A stretch of DNA of 64,000 nucleotides from Ignavibacteriales bacterium (GTDB lineage Bacteria; Bacteroidota; Ignavibacteria; Ignavibacteriales; Melioribacteraceae). Positions 12,310 to 25,253 of this stretch are shown here, piece by piece. The stretch covers positions 2,108,001-2,172,000 of the forward strand of contig JAPLFG010000003.1 in the NCBI GenBank assembly GCA_026390795.1. The letters are read 5' to 3'. The notes below the pieces were generated by a model. The model was given only the letters and a program-made list of their open reading frames with translations. It was not told the origin of the DNA and searched no databases. Numbering within the stretch: the stretch's first letter is position 1; every line of letters starts with the position of its first letter. Made by a program: the position numbers and the translations under genes.

Positions 12310-12783
12310 TTAATTTAAGAAATAATAACCGGCATTTAGAATAGTTGCAAAACTTACCCAGAGCAAGTAGGGAATATTCAAATAAGCGGCAGCCGGTTTT
12401 ATTTTACAAAACAGATAAATCATTGCAGCAATGCTAATCCATAAAAGAATAATTTCTACAAGTGCAGTCCCAATTAAATTGAAATAGAAGAATAGGAAAC
12501 TCCATGAAAAGTTTAAGAGCATTTGAATTGAGAAAACCTTGATAGCCAAGTTTCTCTCTTTCGAAGCCGCCTCTTTCCAAATAAGGAAGAATGAAATTCC
12601 TAAAAGAATGTATAGAGAAGTCCATACCGGACCGAAAACCCAATTTGGAGGATTGAAGGAGGGTCTATTTAATGACGCATACCATGTCGGGACTGCTTGA
12701 GAAGTAAACATTCCTGCTACAGCACCAACGGATAGAGGCAATAATAATGATACTGCCAGTTTAATAATGTTCGATCTATTCAT
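12310..12783 (-). CDS. tspO: TspO/MBR family tryptophan-rich membrane protein
   Basis: A 157-residue, five-helix protein with the family block WYASLNRPSFNPPNWVFGPVWT and Trp-rich helices. TspO proteins bind porphyrins and are linked to light, oxygen and oxidative-stress responses in bacteria. It lies 30 bases downstream of an outer-membrane barrel gene and a few kilobases from the carH photoreceptor locus. A link to light response is attractive, but the intervening promoter gap at 13.6 kb suggests a separate transcript. Confidence 0.93.
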   Translation of the reverse strand: MNRSNIIKLAVSLLLPLSVGAVAGMFTSQAVPTWYASLNRPSFNPPNWVFGPVWTSLYILLGISFFLIWKEAASKERNLAIKVFSIQMLLNFSWSFLFFYFNLIGTALVEIILLWISIAAMIYLFCKIKPAAAYLNIPYLLWVSFATILNAGYYFLN

Positions 12784-15766: not shown

Positions 15767-16219
15767 TTACTTGAAGAATGTTTCCAAATAATTTTTGCGG
15801 TATCTAAATATTTTATCTAATCTCGCTCCAATAAATATTGAATTTGCCAATCTCCCTAAAAATCCCAACGGTATTGCATAGTGAACAATATCTTGAACTT
15901 CCATACCGTTCTCAACTTCTTTAAACAAGTGTTGATGGTGCCAGAATTTGTATGGTCCAAATCTTTGTTCATCCACAAAATAATTACCATAAGTACGAGT
16001 TATTTCTGTTACCCAGTTGATTTTTATTCCTGGCAACAATTTGATACGGTAGATTATTATCTGCCCTTCATACATTGCGGGAGGTAATTCAGATTTAATT
16101 TCGAAATCCATATCCGGTGGAGTAATTTTCTGTAAATTCTTTGGATTCGAAAAAAACTTCCAGCATTCTGTTCTCGTTATTGGTAAAATTTGTTTTCGGT
16201 CTATTCTATATATCTTCAC
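15767..16219 (-). CDS. SRPBCC-fold protein (polyketide cyclase/lipid-binding type)
   Basis: A 150-residue helix-grip protein without a signal peptide. The pattern TECWKFFSNPKNLQKITPPDM and the strands ending in WVTEI and VQDIVHYAIPLG are typical of SRPBCC proteins annotated as cell-division-inhibitor- or cyclase-like. They bind hydrophobic ligands in a deep pocket. It sits two bases after the DUF1295 gene and 39 before the SDR gene, so it is probably co-translated. A lipid or isoprenoid ligand is inferred from the neighbours. Confidence 0.78.
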   Translation of the reverse strand: MKIYRIDRKQILPITRTECWKFFSNPKNLQKITPPDMDFEIKSELPPAMYEGQIIIYRIKLLPGIKINWVTEITRTYGNYFVDEQRFGPYKFWHHQHLFKEVENGMEVQDIVHYAIPLGFLGRLANSIFIGARLDKIFRYRKNYLETFFK

Positions 16220-16221
16220 TA

Positions 16222-16995
16222 CTATCCCTTCTTTCCGACAAGTGGAACGAACATCGGAGTGATCTTCTTATAATCTTCCCACTCTTTATTGCCCTCATAT
16301 TTTTTTTCGAGCAGCGGGACACCTGAAACAAAAACAAGCAATAGATTCAATATTAATGTTCCAACAAAGGAAATTATCCATAAGTCGGAACCGATAGTAA
16401 AGATGCTAATTCCCCACCACAGCACTGCTTCACCAAAGTAATTCGGGTGGCGTGTAAATTTCCAAAGGCCGGATTTAATAATCCTTCCTTTGTTCTTAGG
16501 GTTTCTCTTGAAGCAATACATTTGAAAATCGCCAATGCTTTCAAAGAGAAGTCCAAATAAATAAATTAACACACCAATAAATGAAAACAGATTTAGCTCG
16601 TCGTTGTTACTGCTAAATTCAACCATTATTGGAAGTGCGATGAAGATCATTATTAGTCCTTGCAGGAGAAATACTTTTACGAAGGCATAGAGAACTGCGT
16701 TTTTGCCCCAATCTTTTCTCCATTGAGCATATCTAAAATCTTCACCTTTACCGCGGGCTCTAATGAAAATATGAAGTGATAATCTTACACCCCAAACCAA
16801 GATCATTGCTGTGAGAACAATTTCTTTTAGATCAGCAGAGTCTTTGGTAAAAAGTAAAACAGAAGTGATTAGAATAAAACCAATACCCCAGCCGATATCA
16901 ACTATAGAATTGTTTTTCAGTAGTTGAGCTAAGATGAACATTAAAATCATAAATGACAAAACTGTTACTGCGGATAAAGCTATTATATGAAACAT
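16222..16995 (-). CDS. DUF1295 membrane protein, steroid 5-alpha-reductase/ICMT-like fold
   Basis: A 257-residue multi-pass membrane protein. The C-terminal block with SGLWKFTRHPNYFGE and VPLLEKKYEGNKEWEDYKK is the signature shared by DUF1295, steroid 5-alpha reductases and isoprenylcysteine methyltransferases. These enzymes act on lipid-like substrates with NADPH or SAM. It lies nine bases downstream of the glutathione peroxidase gene and two upstream of the SRPBCC gene, inside the carH operon. A reductase role in fatty acyl or isoprenoid metabolism is inferred. Confidence 0.85.
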   Translation of the reverse strand: MFHIIALSAVTVLSFMILMFILAQLLKNNSIVDIGWGIGFILITSVLLFTKDSADLKEIVLTAMILVWGVRLSLHIFIRARGKGEDFRYAQWRKDWGKNAVLYAFVKVFLLQGLIMIFIALPIMVEFSSNNDELNLFSFIGVLIYLFGLLFESIGDFQMYCFKRNPKNKGRIIKSGLWKFTRHPNYFGEAVLWWGISIFTIGSDLWIISFVGTLILNLLLVFVSGVPLLEKKYEGNKEWEDYKKITPMFVPLVGKKG

Positions 16996-17004
16996 GTATA
17001 ACCC

Positions 17005-17496
17005 TTATAAAATATTTTCAATATAGTTTTCTAAACTGATTGGATCCTTTGCGGGACTAAATCTTTTTACAACACTTCCTTGTCGGTCAACCAAAAATTT
17101 TGTGAAATTCCATCTAATTTTCTTGAACAAAAATCCGGATGATTTTGCTTTGAGAAATATGAATAGTGGATGAGCGTTCTCACCATTTACTTCAACTTTA
17201 GAAAACATGGGAAATGTAACACCATAATTCAAACTGCAAAAAGATTTTATCTCTTCATCAGTTCCGGGATCTTGTTCCCCAAATTGATTGCATGGAAAAC
17301 CGAGCACAGAGAATCCTTTATCGGAATATTTATCGTATAACTTTTGAAGAGATTCGAATTGAGGCGTAAAGCCGCATTTGCTAGCTGTGTTAACTATTAA
17401 CAATACTTTACCTTGATAATCAGATAGCTGAATTTCTTTCCCGTTCATAGACTTAACTGCAACGCTGTAAATAGATTCAATCATTGTTGTACTCAT
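17005..17496 (-). CDS. Glutathione peroxidase family peroxidase
   Basis: A 163-residue thioredoxin-fold peroxidase with the motifs NTASKCGFTPQ (active Cys), LGFPCNQFGEQDPG (Gln) and WNFTKFLVDRQG (Trp and Asn). A Cys replaces selenocysteine, so it likely works with thioredoxin as a lipid- or organic-hydroperoxide reductase. The start overlaps the end of carH by 20 bases, which indicates co-expression with the photoreceptor and fits defence against light-driven lipid peroxidation. Confidence 0.93.
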   Translation of the reverse strand: MSTTMIESIYSVAVKSMNGKEIQLSDYQGKVLLIVNTASKCGFTPQFESLQKLYDKYSDKGFSVLGFPCNQFGEQDPGTDEEIKSFCSLNYGVTFPMFSKVEVNGENAHPLFIFLKAKSSGFLFKKIRWNFTKFLVDRQGSVVKRFSPAKDPISLENYIENIL

Positions 17497-18433
17497 TATT
17501 AGGGTTAATCTGCTTTCTTATTGACATCAGGATTTCTCTGAAATGATTAGGGGAATCGGTGGTGAGAATATCCAATTCTGATAAAGTATTTTTGTAACCA
17601 ATTACACCATTGCCGCTTGCAAAAATGAATACTTTATCGCCAACCATCTCTCGTAATTTTCTTAGCTGAATATTTAGGGAAAGGTCATCAGCAGGATATA
17701 CGATACTCAAATAAAGAGTGCGGGCTTTTAATTGTATGACTGCTGCAGCAATATCTTCTGCAGGTAAACTAGCGCCGAGATATGTTGTCCTCCATCCATC
17801 TGAAGAGGCAAGTGAAGAACCAATCAAAGCCCCAACCTCGTGATATTGTCCCTCGGGAGTTGTAATAATAATTCTTGGTGCATTATCATGGATTTGAAAT
17901 CCATCTGTTATAGTATTGAGAAATTTTATTATGACTGCGCTTGTAAAATGTTCATGAGATACTCTGAGCATTCCGCTCTCCCAATATTTTCCAATCTTGA
18001 ACATTAATGGCAGCAAAATATTTTCGATTAAATCAGGACGGCTGTATTTTACCGAAGCATCGTTCAGAAGCGATACTAATTGTCTATCATCAAAACTTCT
18101 GATAACCTCAATACAATTATTAACAATTCGATCCTCCTCGGACAACTCGCTGTCTATTGCTGATTTATTTTCGGAAGATTTTGTTAAATCAACTTTAAGA
18201 AGCATCTCTGTAAGAACCGGGATTGATAAACCGGCAAGATTGCCAATGCTGTGCCCATGCTTAGTTAATTTTTTCAGCAGAACTAATTTTTCGATATCTG
18301 AATCGGAATAAAGACGTCTGTTGCTTTCCGTTCTGTTGGGATTAACAGCAGAATATCTACCTTCCCAGGATCTGATGGACAATTCCGATACTCCGGATAA
18401 TTTGGCGGCAATTTTAATATTGTAGTTGCTCAA
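17477..18433 (-). CDS. carH: CarH/LitR-type B12-dependent photoreceptor repressor
   Basis: A MerR-type helix-turn-helix (about residues 1-70, KIAAKLSGVSELSIRSWEGRY) is followed by a four-helix bundle and a Rossmann B12-binding domain. The bundle has W151-x9-E161-H162, the motif that in CarH caps the upper face of adenosylcobalamin. His198 in QYHEVG is the expected lower ligand, with Gln in place of the usual Asp/Glu two residues before it. Known family members bind DNA as tetramers in the dark and fall apart in light. I choose TTG at 18433, since AGGA lies eight bases upstream and the protein then begins MSNYNIKIAAK like homologues. The ATG at 18472 lies inside the TATACA repeats. Repeats upstream suggest autoregulation. 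Confidence 0.9.
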   Translation of the reverse strand: MSNYNIKIAAKLSGVSELSIRSWEGRYSAVNPNRTESNRRLYSDSDIEKLVLLKKLTKHGHSIGNLAGLSIPVLTEMLLKVDLTKSSENKSAIDSELSEEDRIVNNCIEVIRSFDDRQLVSLLNDASVKYSRPDLIENILLPLMFKIGKYWESGMLRVSHEHFTSAVIIKFLNTITDGFQIHDNAPRIIITTPEGQYHEVGALIGSSLASSDGWRTTYLGASLPAEDIAAAVIQLKARTLYLSIVYPADDLSLNIQLRKLREMVGDKVFIFASGNGVIGYKNTLSELDILTTDSPNHFREILMSIRKQINPNNEYNND

Positions 18434-18452
18434 TTCCAGATTCCTTTCTAAT

Positions 18453-18471
18453 ATTATACAAATATTATACA
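18453..18471. promoter_or_regulatory. Predicted CarH operator A: two 11-bp direct repeats
   Basis: TATACA occurs at 18455-18460 and again at 18466-18471, exactly 11 bases apart, within the longer match ATTATACA. Thermus CarH is known to bind tandem 11-bp repeats of the form nnTnTACAnn, which both copies fit. Read on the minus strand each copy is TGTATAAT, so the repeats overlap -10-like boxes 20-40 bases before the carH start. This would suit dark autorepression. Confidence 0.75.
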
Positions 18472-18568
18472 TGTTTGAATTTATAACGCGTAATAAACAG
18501 TTTTAGTTCCGAAATAGCAAGATATTTCACATAAAAATAAAAATATATGCAAATTGAACTTTTCTTTT

Positions 18569-18585
18569 TATACAAAAGTTATACA
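18569..18585. promoter_or_regulatory. Predicted CarH operator B: two 11-bp direct repeats
   Basis: TATACA occurs at 18569-18574 and 18580-18585, again with an 11-base period and within TTATACAA. The orientation is the same as operator A. It lies about 50 bases before the desaturase start. TTGAAC at 18554-18559 may be a -35 box whose -10 region would fall on the second repeat. This places the plus-strand lipid operon under the same predicted light control. Confidence 0.72.
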
Positions 18586-18632
18586 AGGGTAACTGAAGAT
18601 ATTTTAAGTAATTGTTACTAAAAGGTGTAAAA

Positions 18633-19376
18633 ATGGCAATTCTGATATTTTTTCTTGTTCACTGGTTTGGATCTCTCTTTTTCCAGACATTCTTTCTACA
18701 TAGGTATGGTGCTCACGGAATGTTTAAGATGAGCAAGTTTTGGGAAAAAGTATTCTACATAGGAACCTACATTTTCCAGGGATCATCTTTTTTGAATCCG
18801 AGAGCATACGCAATAATGCACAGAATGCACCATGCATTTAGCGATACTGAAAGAGATCCTCATTCACCAAAATATTTTAAAAGTGTTTTTGGATTAATGT
18901 GGAAAACTAAGAACGTGTATTTGGACTTGATCAACAATAAAATAAAACCCGGTGAAAATTTTGCAAAGAATATTCCAGACTGGTCGAAGTTTGAGGAATT
19001 TGGAAACGGCTGGGCACATAGAATATTGTGGGGGGCCGGTTATACCGCTTTCTATGTTGTCTTTGCAACACAGTGGTGGATGTTTTTTCTTCTACCGGTT
19101 CATTTTCTGATGGGACCAATTCATGGTTCGATAGTCAATTGGATGGGACATAAATACGGTTACAGAAATTTTAAAGACACAGATGATAATTCAAAGAATA
19201 CATTATTAATAGACATGTTAACAATGGGAGAGTTATTTCAGAACAATCATCATAAATATCCAAGCAGAACAAATTTTGCGGTTAAGTTTTTCGAGTTTGA
19301 TCCGACTTACCCAATAATAAAACTTCTGAGTTGGCTTGGAATAATTCAACTAACGACAAATACTAACAAACATTGA
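18633..19376 (+). CDS. Membrane fatty acid desaturase (acyl-CoA/acyl-lipid type)
   Basis: Three His boxes of the di-iron desaturase family are present: HRYGAH, HRMHH and NNHHKYP, with four membrane segments between and around them. The 247-residue length fits a short delta-9-type enzyme that places a double bond in an acyl chain using O2 and an electron donor. ATG at 18633 has AAAGGTG five bases upstream; the TTG at 18612 has none. It is the first gene of the plus-strand operon, downstream of operator B. The double bond it makes could be the substrate of the downstream cyclopropane-synthase-family enzymes. Confidence 0.88.
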   Translation: MAILIFFLVHWFGSLFFQTFFLHRYGAHGMFKMSKFWEKVFYIGTYIFQGSSFLNPRAYAIMHRMHHAFSDTERDPHSPKYFKSVFGLMWKTKNVYLDLINNKIKPGENFAKNIPDWSKFEEFGNGWAHRILWGAGYTAFYVVFATQWWMFFLLPVHFLMGPIHGSIVNWMGHKYGYRNFKDTDDNSKNTLLIDMLTMGELFQNNHHKYPSRTNFAVKFFEFDPTYPIIKLLSWLGIIQLTTNTNKH

Positions 19377-19383
19377 GGCATAA

Positions 19384-19719
19384 ATGAAAAATTTCTTAAT
19401 CGCAGTATTCAGCATTCTGTTTATATATATAGTTTACACGGTAATCTCAACCAGCATAGAATCCAATCTGTTCAAGGAATGGGATTTTCTTGCATCTATT
19501 CCATGGATGAAAGCAACTTTGATTGACTTCTATATCAATACTGTTGTCATATTTGTCTGGATGGCGTTCCGGGAAAAAAGCTGGTTGGCTAGAATTTTAT
19601 GGCTCTTAGGATTTGTTCTACTAGGAAGCATTGCAACAACATTTTATGTATTGGTTCAACTGTTCAAACTTGATAAGAACGAGCCGGTCATCAACGCATT
19701 TCTATTAAAAAAGGCATAA
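19384..19719 (+). CDS. DUF1475-like small membrane protein
   Basis: A 111-residue protein with three or four membrane helices. The pattern PWMKATLIDFYINTVVIFVW, then WMAFREKSWLARILW and LGSIATTFYVLVQL, resembles the DUF1475 family, which often lies beside cyclopropane-synthase-like genes. It is seven bases after the desaturase and five before the methyltransferase, so it belongs to the same operon. The role is unknown; help in a membrane lipid reaction is inferred. Confidence 0.75.
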   Translation: MKNFLIAVFSILFIYIVYTVISTSIESNLFKEWDFLASIPWMKATLIDFYINTVVIFVWMAFREKSWLARILWLLGFVLLGSIATTFYVLVQLFKLDKNEPVINAFLLKKA

Positions 19720-19724
19720 CATAA

Positions 19725-20762
19725 ATGAACATTGATAAATTACTCACAAGAGATTTATTGCCCGACTTTGCAATAAGATTTGGAATAAGAAGGTTATTAG
19801 CAGAACGGCTAAGAAGCGAAAAAAAATCCAATGTTGAAGAACAGCATGAAAGTATGATGAAGCTTGTTAATCAACTTAAGGAAAGTCCGATAGCTTTAAA
19901 TACTCATGAAGCAAATGAACAGCACTATGAGGTACCAACGGAATTTTTCAAAACAGTTTTAGGTAAAAATCTTAAATACAGCAGTGGTTACTGGAAATCT
20001 GAAAATGTCAGCCTTGATCAATCAGAAAATGATATGCTTGAAATTACATGCAAAAGAGCAGGAGTGAAAAATAATGAAGAGATACTTGAACTTGGCTGCG
20101 GTTGGGGCTCGCTTACATTATTCATGGCTGCAAAATTTCCCGGTTCAAAAATAACGGCAGTCTCAAACTCGAAAACTCAAAAAGAATATATAGACAGCGA
20201 AGCAAATAAAAGGAGATTAAATAATGTTTCGGTAATTACATCAGACATCAATCATTTTCATGTTGATAAAAAATTTGACCGGATCGTTTCTGTGGAAATG
20301 TTTGAACATATGAGAAACTATTCCACTTTATTCAGTAAAGTGCATGGCCTACTTAATCCGTATGGCGAATTATTCATTCACATTTTTACGCATCACAAGT
20401 ATGCTTACTTGTTTGAAGTGAAAGATGAGACAGATTGGATGGCTAAATATTTTTTCACCGGCGGCATAATGCCGAGCGATCACCTTCTGCTCTATTTCAC
20501 GGAAGGATTCAAAACAATTAATCATTGGATAGTAGATGGCCGCCATTATGAAAAGACCTCAAATGCATGGCTGTCAAATATGGACAGAAACAGAGATTCG
20601 ATATTGAAACTATTTGCTAAAACGTATGGCGAGGAAAACAAAATTAAATGGTGGGTTTACTGGAGAGTATTTTTTATGAGCTGTGCTGAGTTGTGGGGAT
20701 TCAACAATGGCGAAGAGTGGTTTGTAAGTCACTATTTATTTAAGAAGAGGGAATTATGTTAA
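19725..20762 (+). CDS. SAM-dependent methyltransferase, cyclopropane-synthase family (CFA-like paralogue 1)
   Basis: The SAM motif is ILELGCGWGSLTLFMA, preceded by the CFA-family block NEQHYEVPTEFF and followed by VSVEMFEHMRNY. The C-terminal half (GGIMPSDHLLLYF, WLSNMDRNRDSIL) is closer to the coclaurine N-methyltransferase-like branch than to classical Cfa. It could methylate or cyclopropanate an unsaturated lipid. The operon context with a desaturase and a second Cfa supports a lipid substrate. It overlaps the next gene by seven bases. Confidence 0.85.
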   Translation: MNIDKLLTRDLLPDFAIRFGIRRLLAERLRSEKKSNVEEQHESMMKLVNQLKESPIALNTHEANEQHYEVPTEFFKTVLGKNLKYSSGYWKSENVSLDQSENDMLEITCKRAGVKNNEEILELGCGWGSLTLFMAAKFPGSKITAVSNSKTQKEYIDSEANKRRLNNVSVITSDINHFHVDKKFDRIVSVEMFEHMRNYSTLFSKVHGLLNPYGELFIHIFTHHKYAYLFEVKDETDWMAKYFFTGGIMPSDHLLLYFTEGFKTINHWIVDGRHYEKTSNAWLSNMDRNRDSILKLFAKTYGEENKIKWWVYWRVFFMSCAELWGFNNGEEWFVSHYLFKKRELC

Positions 20763-21481
20763 ACATGCTTTTAATTATTACGTCTCTAATAGGTTTCAAC
20801 AACTTTGGTAATTCCAATTCTGATGTGAAGACATATTCAAGCAAAGCGTTCGATCTGAAAGACGGCAAGTTTCTGTATAGTGAATTTCATGAAGAGAAAT
20901 TCAACGGTGACAAGATCACTGAAAGCGTAACAAAGTATAAAGATCCTAAGAATAATCTGCTTTCTGAACGGATTATGACTTTTACGGATGATCTAACTAA
21001 ACCCAAATTTGTTCTTAAAGATTTGCGGTCAGGTTATATCGAAGGTTCTGAATTACTGCAAAACAACCGAGTGCGTGTTTACACAAGAGAAAGTTTTGAT
21101 GATAAACTTGAAGAGAAGGTATTGAAGGTGGAGGAGCCTTTTGTAATTGATGGCGGATTAACTTATTTCTTTAGAGAAAACTGGGAACGTTTACTAAATA
21201 ACGAGACAATCGAATTTAATTTTATTGCCCCCGCAAAACTAGATTACTTCAGGTTCCGTGTTTCTAAAAATTCGATTGTCTCTGTTGGCAACAAAAAAGG
21301 AATGCAATTAAAGCTGGAGATAAACAGTTTTATTCTGCGTGCTTTCGTTGATCCAATCTTGATTACTTATGCGTTGGATAATAAAGAAATTCTATCATAC
21401 AAAGGGATATCTAATGTAAACGATGAGAACGGTAAAAGTCACTCGGTAGAAATTGATTTTACTGTTAAAGGTGATAAGTAA
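20756..21481 (+). CDS. Hypothetical exported protein of the lipid operon
   Basis: I do not recognise the family with certainty. The 241-residue protein has a short hydrophobic start and then beta-rich sequence with repeated charged strands, such as KTYSSKAFDLKDGKFLYSEF and RFRVSKNSIVSVGNKKGMQL, suggesting an exported lipid-binding or barrel-like fold. It overlaps the upstream methyltransferase by seven bases and its stop shares one base with the next start. This tight coupling implies a role in the same lipid pathway. Confidence 0.6.
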   Translation: MLNMLLIITSLIGFNNFGNSNSDVKTYSSKAFDLKDGKFLYSEFHEEKFNGDKITESVTKYKDPKNNLLSERIMTFTDDLTKPKFVLKDLRSGYIEGSELLQNNRVRVYTRESFDDKLEEKVLKVEEPFVIDGGLTYFFRENWERLLNNETIEFNFIAPAKLDYFRFRVSKNSIVSVGNKKGMQLKLEINSFILRAFVDPILITYALDNKEILSYKGISNVNDENGKSHSVEIDFTVKGDK

Positions 21482-22743
21482 TGGAAAAGCTAGCGATAGT
21501 TGGAACGGGCATTGCCGGTATGGGTGCGGCATACTTCTTAAACAAGAATTATGATATTACAGTTTTCGAGAAAGATAGTTATGTGGGCGGACATACAAAT
21601 ACAGTTACCGTTAAGGAAAGCGATAAAGAGATATTTATTGATACAGGTTTTATGGTGTTCAACAAAGTAACATATCCAAATCTCACAAAGTTATTTGAAA
21701 AACTGGATGTGGCGATTAAACCAACAGATATGTCATTCAGCGTATTTCATCTTGAGAGCGGTTTGGAATATTCGGGCTCCGGTTTAAATGGATTGTTTGC
21801 GCAGAGAAAAAATATTTTCAATCCCAAGTTTGTGAAAATGCTTTTCCAAATAAATAAATTTAATAAAGAATGCCTGGAAACGTTGACCAATCCAAAGTAT
21901 GCTGATTACTCTCTTGCTGATTATGTAGAAGAAAAAGGATCCGGAAAAGATTTTTTATATAAATATTTAATTCCTATGAGTTCAGCAGTTTGGTCATCGC
22001 CGCCGGATTTGATGCTGAAATTCCCGGCTAAAACTCTTGTAAGGTTTTTCCATAATCATGGTTTTCTTGGCTTGGATACACAGCATCAATGGTATACTGT
22101 TGTTGACGGAAGCCAGAGTTATCGTAAAAAAATCACCGCACAGTATCAGGATAAAATTCACGTTAACAACGGAGTTAAGTCCGTATCAAGAGAAAATGGA
22201 AAAGTAAAAATCTCAACAGTTGACAACACTGAATATCTATTTGATAAAGTAATATTCGCATCTCATGCCGATGAGACTTTGAAGATGCTTACTGATCCGA
22301 CTGACTTGGAAAAGAATATTCTTACCAAATTTAAATATCAGTTAAACAAGGCAACTTTACACACGGATTCTACGATTATGCCGAAGAATAAAAATGTATG
22401 GTCATCTTGGAATTACAGAATTGAGCCGAAAAATGGAGAGGTTAAGACATCTACAATTTATTATATGAACAGTCTTCAGCATGTTTCTAAAAGTCAGGAC
22501 TACTTTGTTTCGATAAACGATCCGGGGAATGTTGGCAAGGATAAGATAATAAAGGAGATTGATTACGATCATCCTCTGTTCGATCTTGACTCGATAGAAG
22601 CGCAGGAAAACATTCAGCAAATTAACAAGCAGGGGAACAACACATTTTTCTGCGGAAGTTATTTCAAGTATGGTTTTCACGAGGATGCTTTTGCAAGTGC
22701 GCTGGAATTAAGTTTTCACTTACTGGGCAATCTAAAATGGTAA
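21481..22743 (+). CDS. FAD-dependent amine oxidase/desaturase-like flavoprotein
   Basis: The N-terminal dinucleotide motif AIVGTGIAGMGAAYFL (residues 5-20) and GGHTNTV are typical of the amine-oxidase/phytoene-desaturase/protoporphyrinogen-oxidase group. The C-terminal FCGSYFKYGFHEDAFASALE is the usual FAD-contacting end. In many bacteria this flavoprotein sits next to DUF1365 and Cfa genes, as here, often in light- or singlet-oxygen-induced loci. It could dehydrogenate a lipid product. It overlaps DUF1365 by seven bases. Confidence 0.87.
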   Translation: MEKLAIVGTGIAGMGAAYFLNKNYDITVFEKDSYVGGHTNTVTVKESDKEIFIDTGFMVFNKVTYPNLTKLFEKLDVAIKPTDMSFSVFHLESGLEYSGSGLNGLFAQRKNIFNPKFVKMLFQINKFNKECLETLTNPKYADYSLADYVEEKGSGKDFLYKYLIPMSSAVWSSPPDLMLKFPAKTLVRFFHNHGFLGLDTQHQWYTVVDGSQSYRKKITAQYQDKIHVNNGVKSVSRENGKVKISTVDNTEYLFDKVIFASHADETLKMLTDPTDLEKNILTKFKYQLNKATLHTDSTIMPKNKNVWSSWNYRIEPKNGEVKTSTIYYMNSLQHVSKSQDYFVSINDPGNVGKDKIIKEIDYDHPLFDLDSIEAQENIQQINKQGNNTFFCGSYFKYGFHEDAFASALELSFHLLGNLKW

Positions 22744-24773: not shown

Positions 24774-25253
24774 ATGACTTTGATTGAAAAAATAAAAAAA
24801 CTTTTTAGTAGCAAATATGTTGTGCCGATAAAAAAACTACTGATGCAGGGAACATCACCAAAGATGATTGCAATCGGAGTTTCCGGCGCACTGGTAATAG
24901 GATTGTTTCCTGTGCTTGGATCTACCACCTTGCTCTGCACTTTGTTTGCATTAACTTTTAGATTAAATTTACCGTTGGTTCAACTGGTTAATTTTTCTGT
25001 TTATCCACTTCAATTAATTCTGATAATACCATTAATGAAATTAGGAACAATGGTATTTGGTTTCGAAAAACTGAAGTATGGATTTAATGATATAGTTAAT
25101 ATGATAAGCCATGATACACTTCATGCAGTTGCAGTTCTTTGGAATGTGACAATGCAGGCAATAGGAGTATGGTTGCTTATTGCTCCAATCTTTGCATTTT
25201 TAATCTATTTAATTTTGCACCCCATTTTGAAAAGTTTAAAATATGACAAATAA
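24774..25253 (+). CDS. DUF2062 membrane protein
   Basis: A 159-residue protein matching DUF2062: GTSPKMIAIGVSGALVIGLFPVLGSTTLLC, then a second hydrophobic pair and the NFSVYPLQL segment. Two to four membrane helices are predicted. DUF2062 proteins often close lipid or sugar-modification operons; the function is unknown. The gene begins two bases after cfa and is followed by a terminator, so it is the last gene of the light-locus plus-strand operon. Confidence 0.82.
   Translation: MTLIEKIKKLFSSKYVVPIKKLLMQGTSPKMIAIGVSGALVIGLFPVLGSTTLLCTLFALTFRLNLPLVQLVNFSVYPLQLILIIPLMKLGTMVFGFEKLKYGFNDIVNMISHDTLHAVAVLWNVTMQAIGVWLLIAPIFAFLIYLILHPILKSLKYDK

Follow-up and report, generated by a model that had tools for sequence, protein, structure and literature searches.

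Does a single B12-dependent photoreceptor control two divergent operons, one its own and one for membrane lipids, in a bacterium of the Ignavibacteriales? The question is raised by a 64,000-nucleotide stretch of its genome (the window), in which a gene for a CarH-like regulator faces away from a lipid operon and the gap between them carries two pairs of short direct repeats. The best-known role of CarH is to switch carotenoid genes. An earlier note, made from the sequence, had predicted that one photoreceptor represses both operons in the dark through these repeats.

Two repeat pairs of the CarH operator type in the gap

The hexamer TATACA begins at 18455, 18466, 18569 and 18580, every copy on the + strand, as the earlier note had placed it. 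The 11-base period that it gave for each pair is equally exact: TATACA-N5-TATACA occurs twice in the 64-kb window, against a shuffle mean of 0.00, and both times in the carH/lipid gap. Across the whole genome, G000 (4,078,173 bases), these are the only two matches, and a reversed-pattern control gives 0. Single TATACA hexamers stay at background (28 in the window, shuffle mean 34.4), and thus the signal is the 11-base spacing. One pair lies at each of the two divergent promoters, as had been proposed:

18450..18471, + strand: carH-side operator-like pair, two exact 11-bp copies of AATATTATACA, with TnnACA at 18455 and 18466
18569..18585, + strand: TATACA-N5-TATACA, the operator-like pair on the lipid side, where it overlaps an ECF-like promoter in its spacer and -10

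Both sites are tandem 11-bp TnnACA repeats close to carH and a putative target promoter. They fit the 11-bp form nnnnTnnACAn described for CarH operators (PMC9304148), and such pairs are kept upstream of carH homologues, in line with the assignment to the CarH operator type; the consensus quoted before, nnTnTACAnn, differs from the described form. No TnnACA is kept in the 11-mers flanking either pair, leaving two canonical repeats per site and not three to four. Three repeats are found in T. thermophilus and four in B. megaterium, a number that is not universal in CarH operators, and a CarH dimer of Cystobacter needs two tandem repeats (PMC9304148). Binding as a tetramer, which had been carried over from Thermus, is doubtful for two-repeat sites of this kind, to which a dimer would be suited no less than a tetramer.

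A looser pattern, TNKACA-N5-TNKACA, shows no excess across the genome (28 matches vs 25 for the control), and 20 of its 26 matches outside the gap lie under an open frame of at least 200 codons. On these counts a wider CarH regulon in G000 was considered and set aside. Six loose-pattern sites outside such frames (L058, L068, L071, L072, L078 and L079) are the remaining candidates.

A CarH-like regulator with a glutamate at the His132 position

The regulator gene and its putative ribosome-binding element are as follows:

17477..18433, - strand: carH-like gene, likely TTG start, with MerR_1, B12-binding_2 and B12-binding matches
18442..18449, - strand: Shine-Dalgarno-like AGAAAGGA of carH, read from the sequence

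The longest carH open frame begins at an ATG at 18472 and overlaps the carH-side repeats. Translation probably starts at the TTG at 18433-18431, which follows AGAAAGGA. This start is favoured because in the homologue L004 (76% identical) the frame comes after a stop and its first start candidates are TTG.

Pfam matches give the protein the domain set of CarH: a MerR-type DNA-binding domain, a four-helix B12-binding_2 domain and a Rossmann B12-binding domain, the last (PF02310) at 29.9 bits, slightly below its cut-off of 32.1. By sequence, its best relatives in the PDB are T. thermophilus CarH entries (E about 2e-20). The top PDB fold matches of its AlphaFold2 model (mean pLDDT 89.2, pTM 0.65) are again T. 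thermophilus CarH structures, the DNA complex 5c8e included, with an rmsd of about 3 Å for the B12 domain alone and above 11 Å at full length, where the domain arrangement of the model differs. The score against NCBIfam NF052513, the equivalog of T. thermophilus-type CarH, is 84.8 bits against a cut-off of 400, and we therefore file the regulator as CarH-like and not as an NF052513 equivalog.

Light-responsive cobalamin domains carry the motifs GxxW, EH, GxxH and GxxxP (PMC11796333). Compared with a stretch of TtCarH, the regulator has all four, as GKYW, EH, GQYH and GASLP, the last placed by hand after GxxH. His132 of TtCarH, the upper ligand in its bis-His light state, is tied to light-driven disassembly (PMC10442372), and its equivalent here is Glu. 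Since this position varies among photoreceptors (PMC11796333), we did not count it as defining. The structure alignment comprised the window and 19 of 28 other homologue loci; in the motif scoring of homologues L009 was left unscored (its extracted frame ended early) and L031 was omitted. The homologue at L028 (G030) lacks W, EH and GxxH and is perhaps B12-independent, yet repeat pairs lie upstream of it.

Because the His132 ligand switch is missing, the regulator might bind its sites but sense the adenosylcobalamin level or the cobalamin redox state in place of light. Besides the Glu itself, this reading can draw on the H132A variant of TtCarH, which is mostly tetrameric in the light, though an earlier report that H132A disassembles is noted in the same source (PMC10442372). 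However, CtMerR, a MerR-type protein with Arg at that position, is light-responsive, photoreceptors vary at this site (PMC11796333), the signature motifs are retained in the regulator, and the lipid operon resembles light-induced LitR targets of Pseudomonas (PMC9758184). We thus regard cobalamin sensing as unlikely, and light sensing as the preferred reading.

The divergent operons and their gene content

Behind carH, its operon continues with three genes:

17005..17496, - strand: glutathione-peroxidase-family gene, overlapping the end of carH (domain match and synteny)
16222..16995, - strand: DUF1295 gene (domain match and synteny)
15767..16219, - strand: conserved gene with no Pfam match (synteny), provisionally labelled SRPBCC

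Further along the same strand, the window has a TspO/MBR-family gene at 12310-12783; TspO is linked in other bacteria to tetrapyrrole and photo-oxidative regulation. On the opposite strand the lipid operon reads:

18633..19376, + strand: fatty acid desaturase gene, first of the operon (domain match)
19384..19719, + strand: DUF1475 gene (domain match)
19725..20762, + strand: CMAS-type methyltransferase gene (domain match)
20756..21481, + strand: conserved gene with no Pfam match (synteny), provisionally labelled DUF3833
21481..22743, + strand: ufaD-like FAD amine-oxidase-family gene (domain match; order compared with PMC7380195)
22737..23519, + strand: ufaO-like DUF1365 gene (domain match; UfaO contains DUF1365, PMC7380195)
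23507..24772, + strand: ufaM-like CMAS gene (domain match)
24774..25253, + strand: DUF2062 gene, end of the syntenic lipid run (domain match and synteny)

The operon thus appears, at the domain level and by synteny, to carry the furan-fatty-acid set of adjacent ufaD-, ufaO- and ufaM-like genes, which the earlier note missed. UfaM is a SAM-dependent methylase, UfaD a desaturase with an NAD/FAD domain and UfaO a DUF1365 protein; the R. palustris counterparts of UfaD, UfaO and UfaM are RPA2571, RPA2570 and RPA2569 (PMC7380195). In a domain-level comparison, the three genes of the window follow the order RPA2571-2570-2569 and match the ufaD, ufaO and ufaM content of Rhodobacter sphaeroides and R. 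palustris.

The pairs are conserved beside carH homologues

Among 146 genomes searched, 26, the window's own included, have a regulator homologue at E <= 1e-20. A tandem TNNACA pair lies upstream at 24 of the 29 homologue loci, against 0.75 expected, and a TNKACA pair at 22, against 0.12 expected; the 29 include the window, the partial gene L031 and close sister genomes, and the counts ignore kinship. Expectations come from 300 first-order resampling shuffles of each locus. Not all of the 24 pairs are strong: some match TNNACA weakly, with L016 and L022 lost under TNKACA, and five of the 29 loci are without any upstream pair.

The carH/lipid arrangement is present, whole or in part, in seven genomes. 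Contig ends cut it in G077 and G131, an ECF gene precedes the desaturase in G023, and G088 has no desaturase match. All seven gaps have the lipid-side pair, its first repeat reading TATACA or TAGACA 11 bases upstream of the second, and six have a strict carH-side pair. The carH side of G056 has a degenerate pair only, that of G023 has three repeats on the other strand, and G019 has one further pair, also on the other strand. When four of these gaps are aligned, GAACT, TANACAA and GTTNTACA are among the invariant columns. Missing conservation beside carH homologues had been named in advance as grounds for giving up the prediction; pairs are present at most of the homologue loci and in the syntenic gaps, so that the prediction passed this check.

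DUF1365 occurs in six of the 146 genomes, within 5 kb of carH in five; the remaining one is G001, whose contig breaks off within the operon, short of the carH position. No DUF1365 match was found in 21 of the 26 carH-bearing genomes, two of which (G077 and G131) have their syntenic contig cut short. The lipid link is therefore a minority arrangement, and the other carH homologues adjoin other genes. Eleven genomes of the same genus gave no carH match at E <= 1e-20. Absence of carH from the genus was considered and not adopted, as the lipid operon of G001 runs off the contig end and absence there is not established. A wider contig scan for the regulator gave two loci; the regulator at L032 is 75% identical and apparently lies on the same contig as G077:C114, the two being of equal length (3,652 bases).

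Several homologue loci differ in their surroundings. G056 has a second carH-like gene (L006 and L084, G056:C144) with no upstream pairs and no lipid operon in the neighbouring stretch. At L016 and L018 (G051 and G028) the gene divergent from carH resembles, by eye, GTP cyclohydrolase I (FolE). A recurrent neighbour pair is seen at L013 and L014 (G116 and G144), where a fasciclin-domain gene (a Pfam match at L013, alike by eye at L014) is divergent from carH and followed by an ECF-like gene. L010, L011, L016 and L023 have a TTGA-type -33 and TAnnTTTG -7 before carH, which is the Bacteroidota-type promoter consensus; at L010, L011 and L023 a TTGACA-N5-TAGACA pair takes in the -33 TTGACA, an operator design unlike that of the window.

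Both pairs lie at putative ECF-type promoters

A GGAAC-type -35 is the consensus of ECF-sigma promoters. Both promoters of the gap look to be of this type, [GT]GAAC-N18-GTTA, a feature overlooked by the earlier note:

18555..18585, + strand: lipid-operon ECF-like promoter, TGAAC-N18-GTTATACA, a form shared with an ECF sigma gene of G000
18480..18510, - strand: carH-operon ECF-like promoter, GGAAC-N18-GTTATAAA, with the operator pair starting 8 nt downstream of the -10

The elements are a GGAAC-type -35, a fixed spacer and a -10 matching the ECF gene's own promoter. On the lipid strand of all seven syntenic gaps, [GT]GAAC stands 8-9 bases before the pair, and GTTATACA or GTTGTACA, which follows GAAC by 17-18 bases, includes the second repeat. 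The carH strand has [GT]GAAC-N18-GT in 7/7 gaps and GTTA in 4/7, the boxes being imperfect in G019 (GTAT), G023 (GTTC) and G077 (GTTG). [GT]GAAC-N17-18-GT is thus present on both strands of every gap. The GTTA form occupies 10 of the 14 positions on both strands together, against 0.008-0.019 expected per gap, an estimate for the GTTA form alone.

G000 has 19 matches to a carH-adjacent ECF sigma factor, three of them close relatives. The gene at G000:C1:137593-138138 has sigma-70 regions 2 and 4, and its own promoter reads GAAC-N18-GTTATACA. A search of G000 for KGAACT-N17-GTTATA gave six sites, against 3 for the control: this C1 gene, both gap promoters and three others, two of which lie inside ORFs while C3:513204 lies outside any ORF of at least 80 codons. 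A separate ECF-like promoter search also gave six matches in G000 (2 for the control), one each at the ECF gene and the lipid promoter, two within ORFs and two more. Assignment of a single ECF orthologue was abandoned, since four of the seven inner branches stayed open in a tree built from ten ECF proteins; the C1 gene, picked by its promoter, is therefore only a candidate. In the relatives G023, G042, G021 and G128 carH is divergent from a gene that encodes an ECF factor.

We scored the combination of box and repeats as GAAC-N9-TNKACA-N4-T-TNKACA, a composite drawn from carH loci already seen. It occurs at 12 places in 11 of the 146 genomes, against 4 matches in 3 genomes for a control pattern, and is found in 10 of the 26 carH-bearing genomes vs 1 of the 120 without carH (Fisher 5.9e-8). 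Ten of the 12 places are directly upstream of carH, one is about 2.2 kb off (G085), and one is inside an ORF of G020, a genome without a carH match. Because the pattern was written after those loci had been viewed, its presence at carH loci is partly circular, and the informative part of the result is its rarity elsewhere. With one mismatch allowed, G000 has one match to the composite and four to the control. The site about 2.2 kb from carH, L107 (G085:C325:1980-2009), is a second site with ECF box and repeat pair and ends 35 bases before a DUF4397 gene; its layout suggests a further target in G085.

The second lipid-side repeat coincides with the -10, and the lipid-side pair could therefore be mainly an ECF promoter whose GTTATACA resembles TnnACA by accident, with CarH regulating only its own gene. 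The ECF gene's own promoter indeed has GTTATACA but lacks a TnnACA 11 bases before it, and GGAAC-N19-GTTA is kept at L020 and L021 without any pair and at L022 with none on that strand. Such a reading is improbable, however, given a first repeat 11 bases upstream in 7/7 gaps and a composite nearly restricted to carH-bearing genomes.

Action by way of a DNA loop between the two pairs, or by activation, in place of simple steric repression is about as improbable. The sites share one orientation, and their first repeats are 114-117 bp apart in G000, G077 and G019, but this distance grows to 238 bp in G131 and to 204 bp in G088, and the carH-side repeats of G023 are on the other strand. DNA looping was rejected because the pair spacing is not maintained in G131 and G088. 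Chance repeats in A+T-rich intergenic DNA, which would fit a lone TATACA at background and a loose pair pattern without genome-wide excess, can be dismissed almost entirely, as they are contradicted by conservation in seven syntenic gaps and at 24 of 29 loci and by only two strict pairs in 4.08 Mb.

A model for light-gated transcription of both operons

We then propose a mechanistic model, which we consider probable, in which the CarH-like regulator controls both pairs, is released by light and so permits ECF-driven transcription of both operons toward a protective lipid product. Both tandem pairs would be operators of the adjacent regulator. In the dark, the regulator with adenosylcobalamin would bind both. 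On the lipid side, the pair overlies spacer and -10 of the ECF-type promoter, and its occupation would block the lipid operon, from the desaturase to the ufaD-ufaO-ufaM-like genes; on the carH side, the pair follows the -10 of the second, divergent promoter at a short distance, in the start region, and its occupation would block the regulator's own operon (carH, gpx, DUF1295). Light would cleave the Co-C bond and release the regulator from DNA, and an ECF sigma factor, for which G000:C1:137593-138138 is the candidate, could then transcribe both arms. The product may be furan or related protective membrane lipids.

A more specific version, which we offer tentatively, is a two-key promoter pair, in which the ECF sigma factor is needed to open both operons and a B12 photoreceptor without His132 vetoes both operons in the dark, through two-repeat operators within or upon ECF promoters. 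Lipid protection would then require light and the ECF signal together. CarH-family regulators and ECF factors are reportedly joined elsewhere: in Streptomyces coelicolor, LitR, a regulator of this family, and the ECF sigma factor LitS are said to act in one light response, on carotenoid genes, unlike in the window.

The operators of T. thermophilus, B. megaterium and myxobacteria are likewise tandem 11-bp nnnnTnnACAn repeats over promoter elements, often beside carH, and S. cellulosum, too, has two CarH operators per genome (PMC9304148). The H. ochraceum operator has two full repeats and two pseudorepeats, whereas the window sites have no recognisable pseudorepeats (PMC9304148). These operators serve carotenoid genes, and at the M. 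xanthus promoter it is the main sigma factor that acts (PMC9304148); in contrast, the window has ECF-type boxes and a furan-fatty-acid-like operon.

Light control of ufaM by the LitR/CarH family is already known from the class II LitR proteins of Pseudomonas (PMC9758184). PplR of P. putida and PmlR of P. mendocina are MerR-type members of this family, and ufaM, phrB and folE are light-induced there; unlike in the window, where the regulator itself carries B12-photoreceptor motifs, light sensing there falls to short LOV proteins, and the promoter that was tested is of a sigma70-like type (PMC9758184). In the blue-light response of V. cholerae, a MerR-type regulator and ChrR act and a CFA synthase gene is induced (PMC5241685). 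No CarH-type repressor appears in the passages of PMC7380195 on the furan-fatty-acid genes of R. sphaeroides and R. palustris, unlike what we propose here. The furan-fatty-acid product rises in a chrR mutant of R. sphaeroides (PMC7380195).

Our literature searches, in which subscription journals are thinly covered, found no paper joining CarH with Ignavibacteria or LitR with DUF1365, and in a search on CarH, photoreceptor and furan fatty acid, furan fatty acid was absent among the matches listed. The ECF factor RpoE has a role in the R. sphaeroides chrR mutant effect.

If the model is true, a membrane-lipid pathway linked to defence against photo-oxidation is also under the control of B12-type photoreception, on ECF-type promoters, in a group apparently related to Ignavibacteria. 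The gap would further offer defined DNA sites of 17-22 bp for studying how a CarH-like protein binds and is released with two repeats and no His132.
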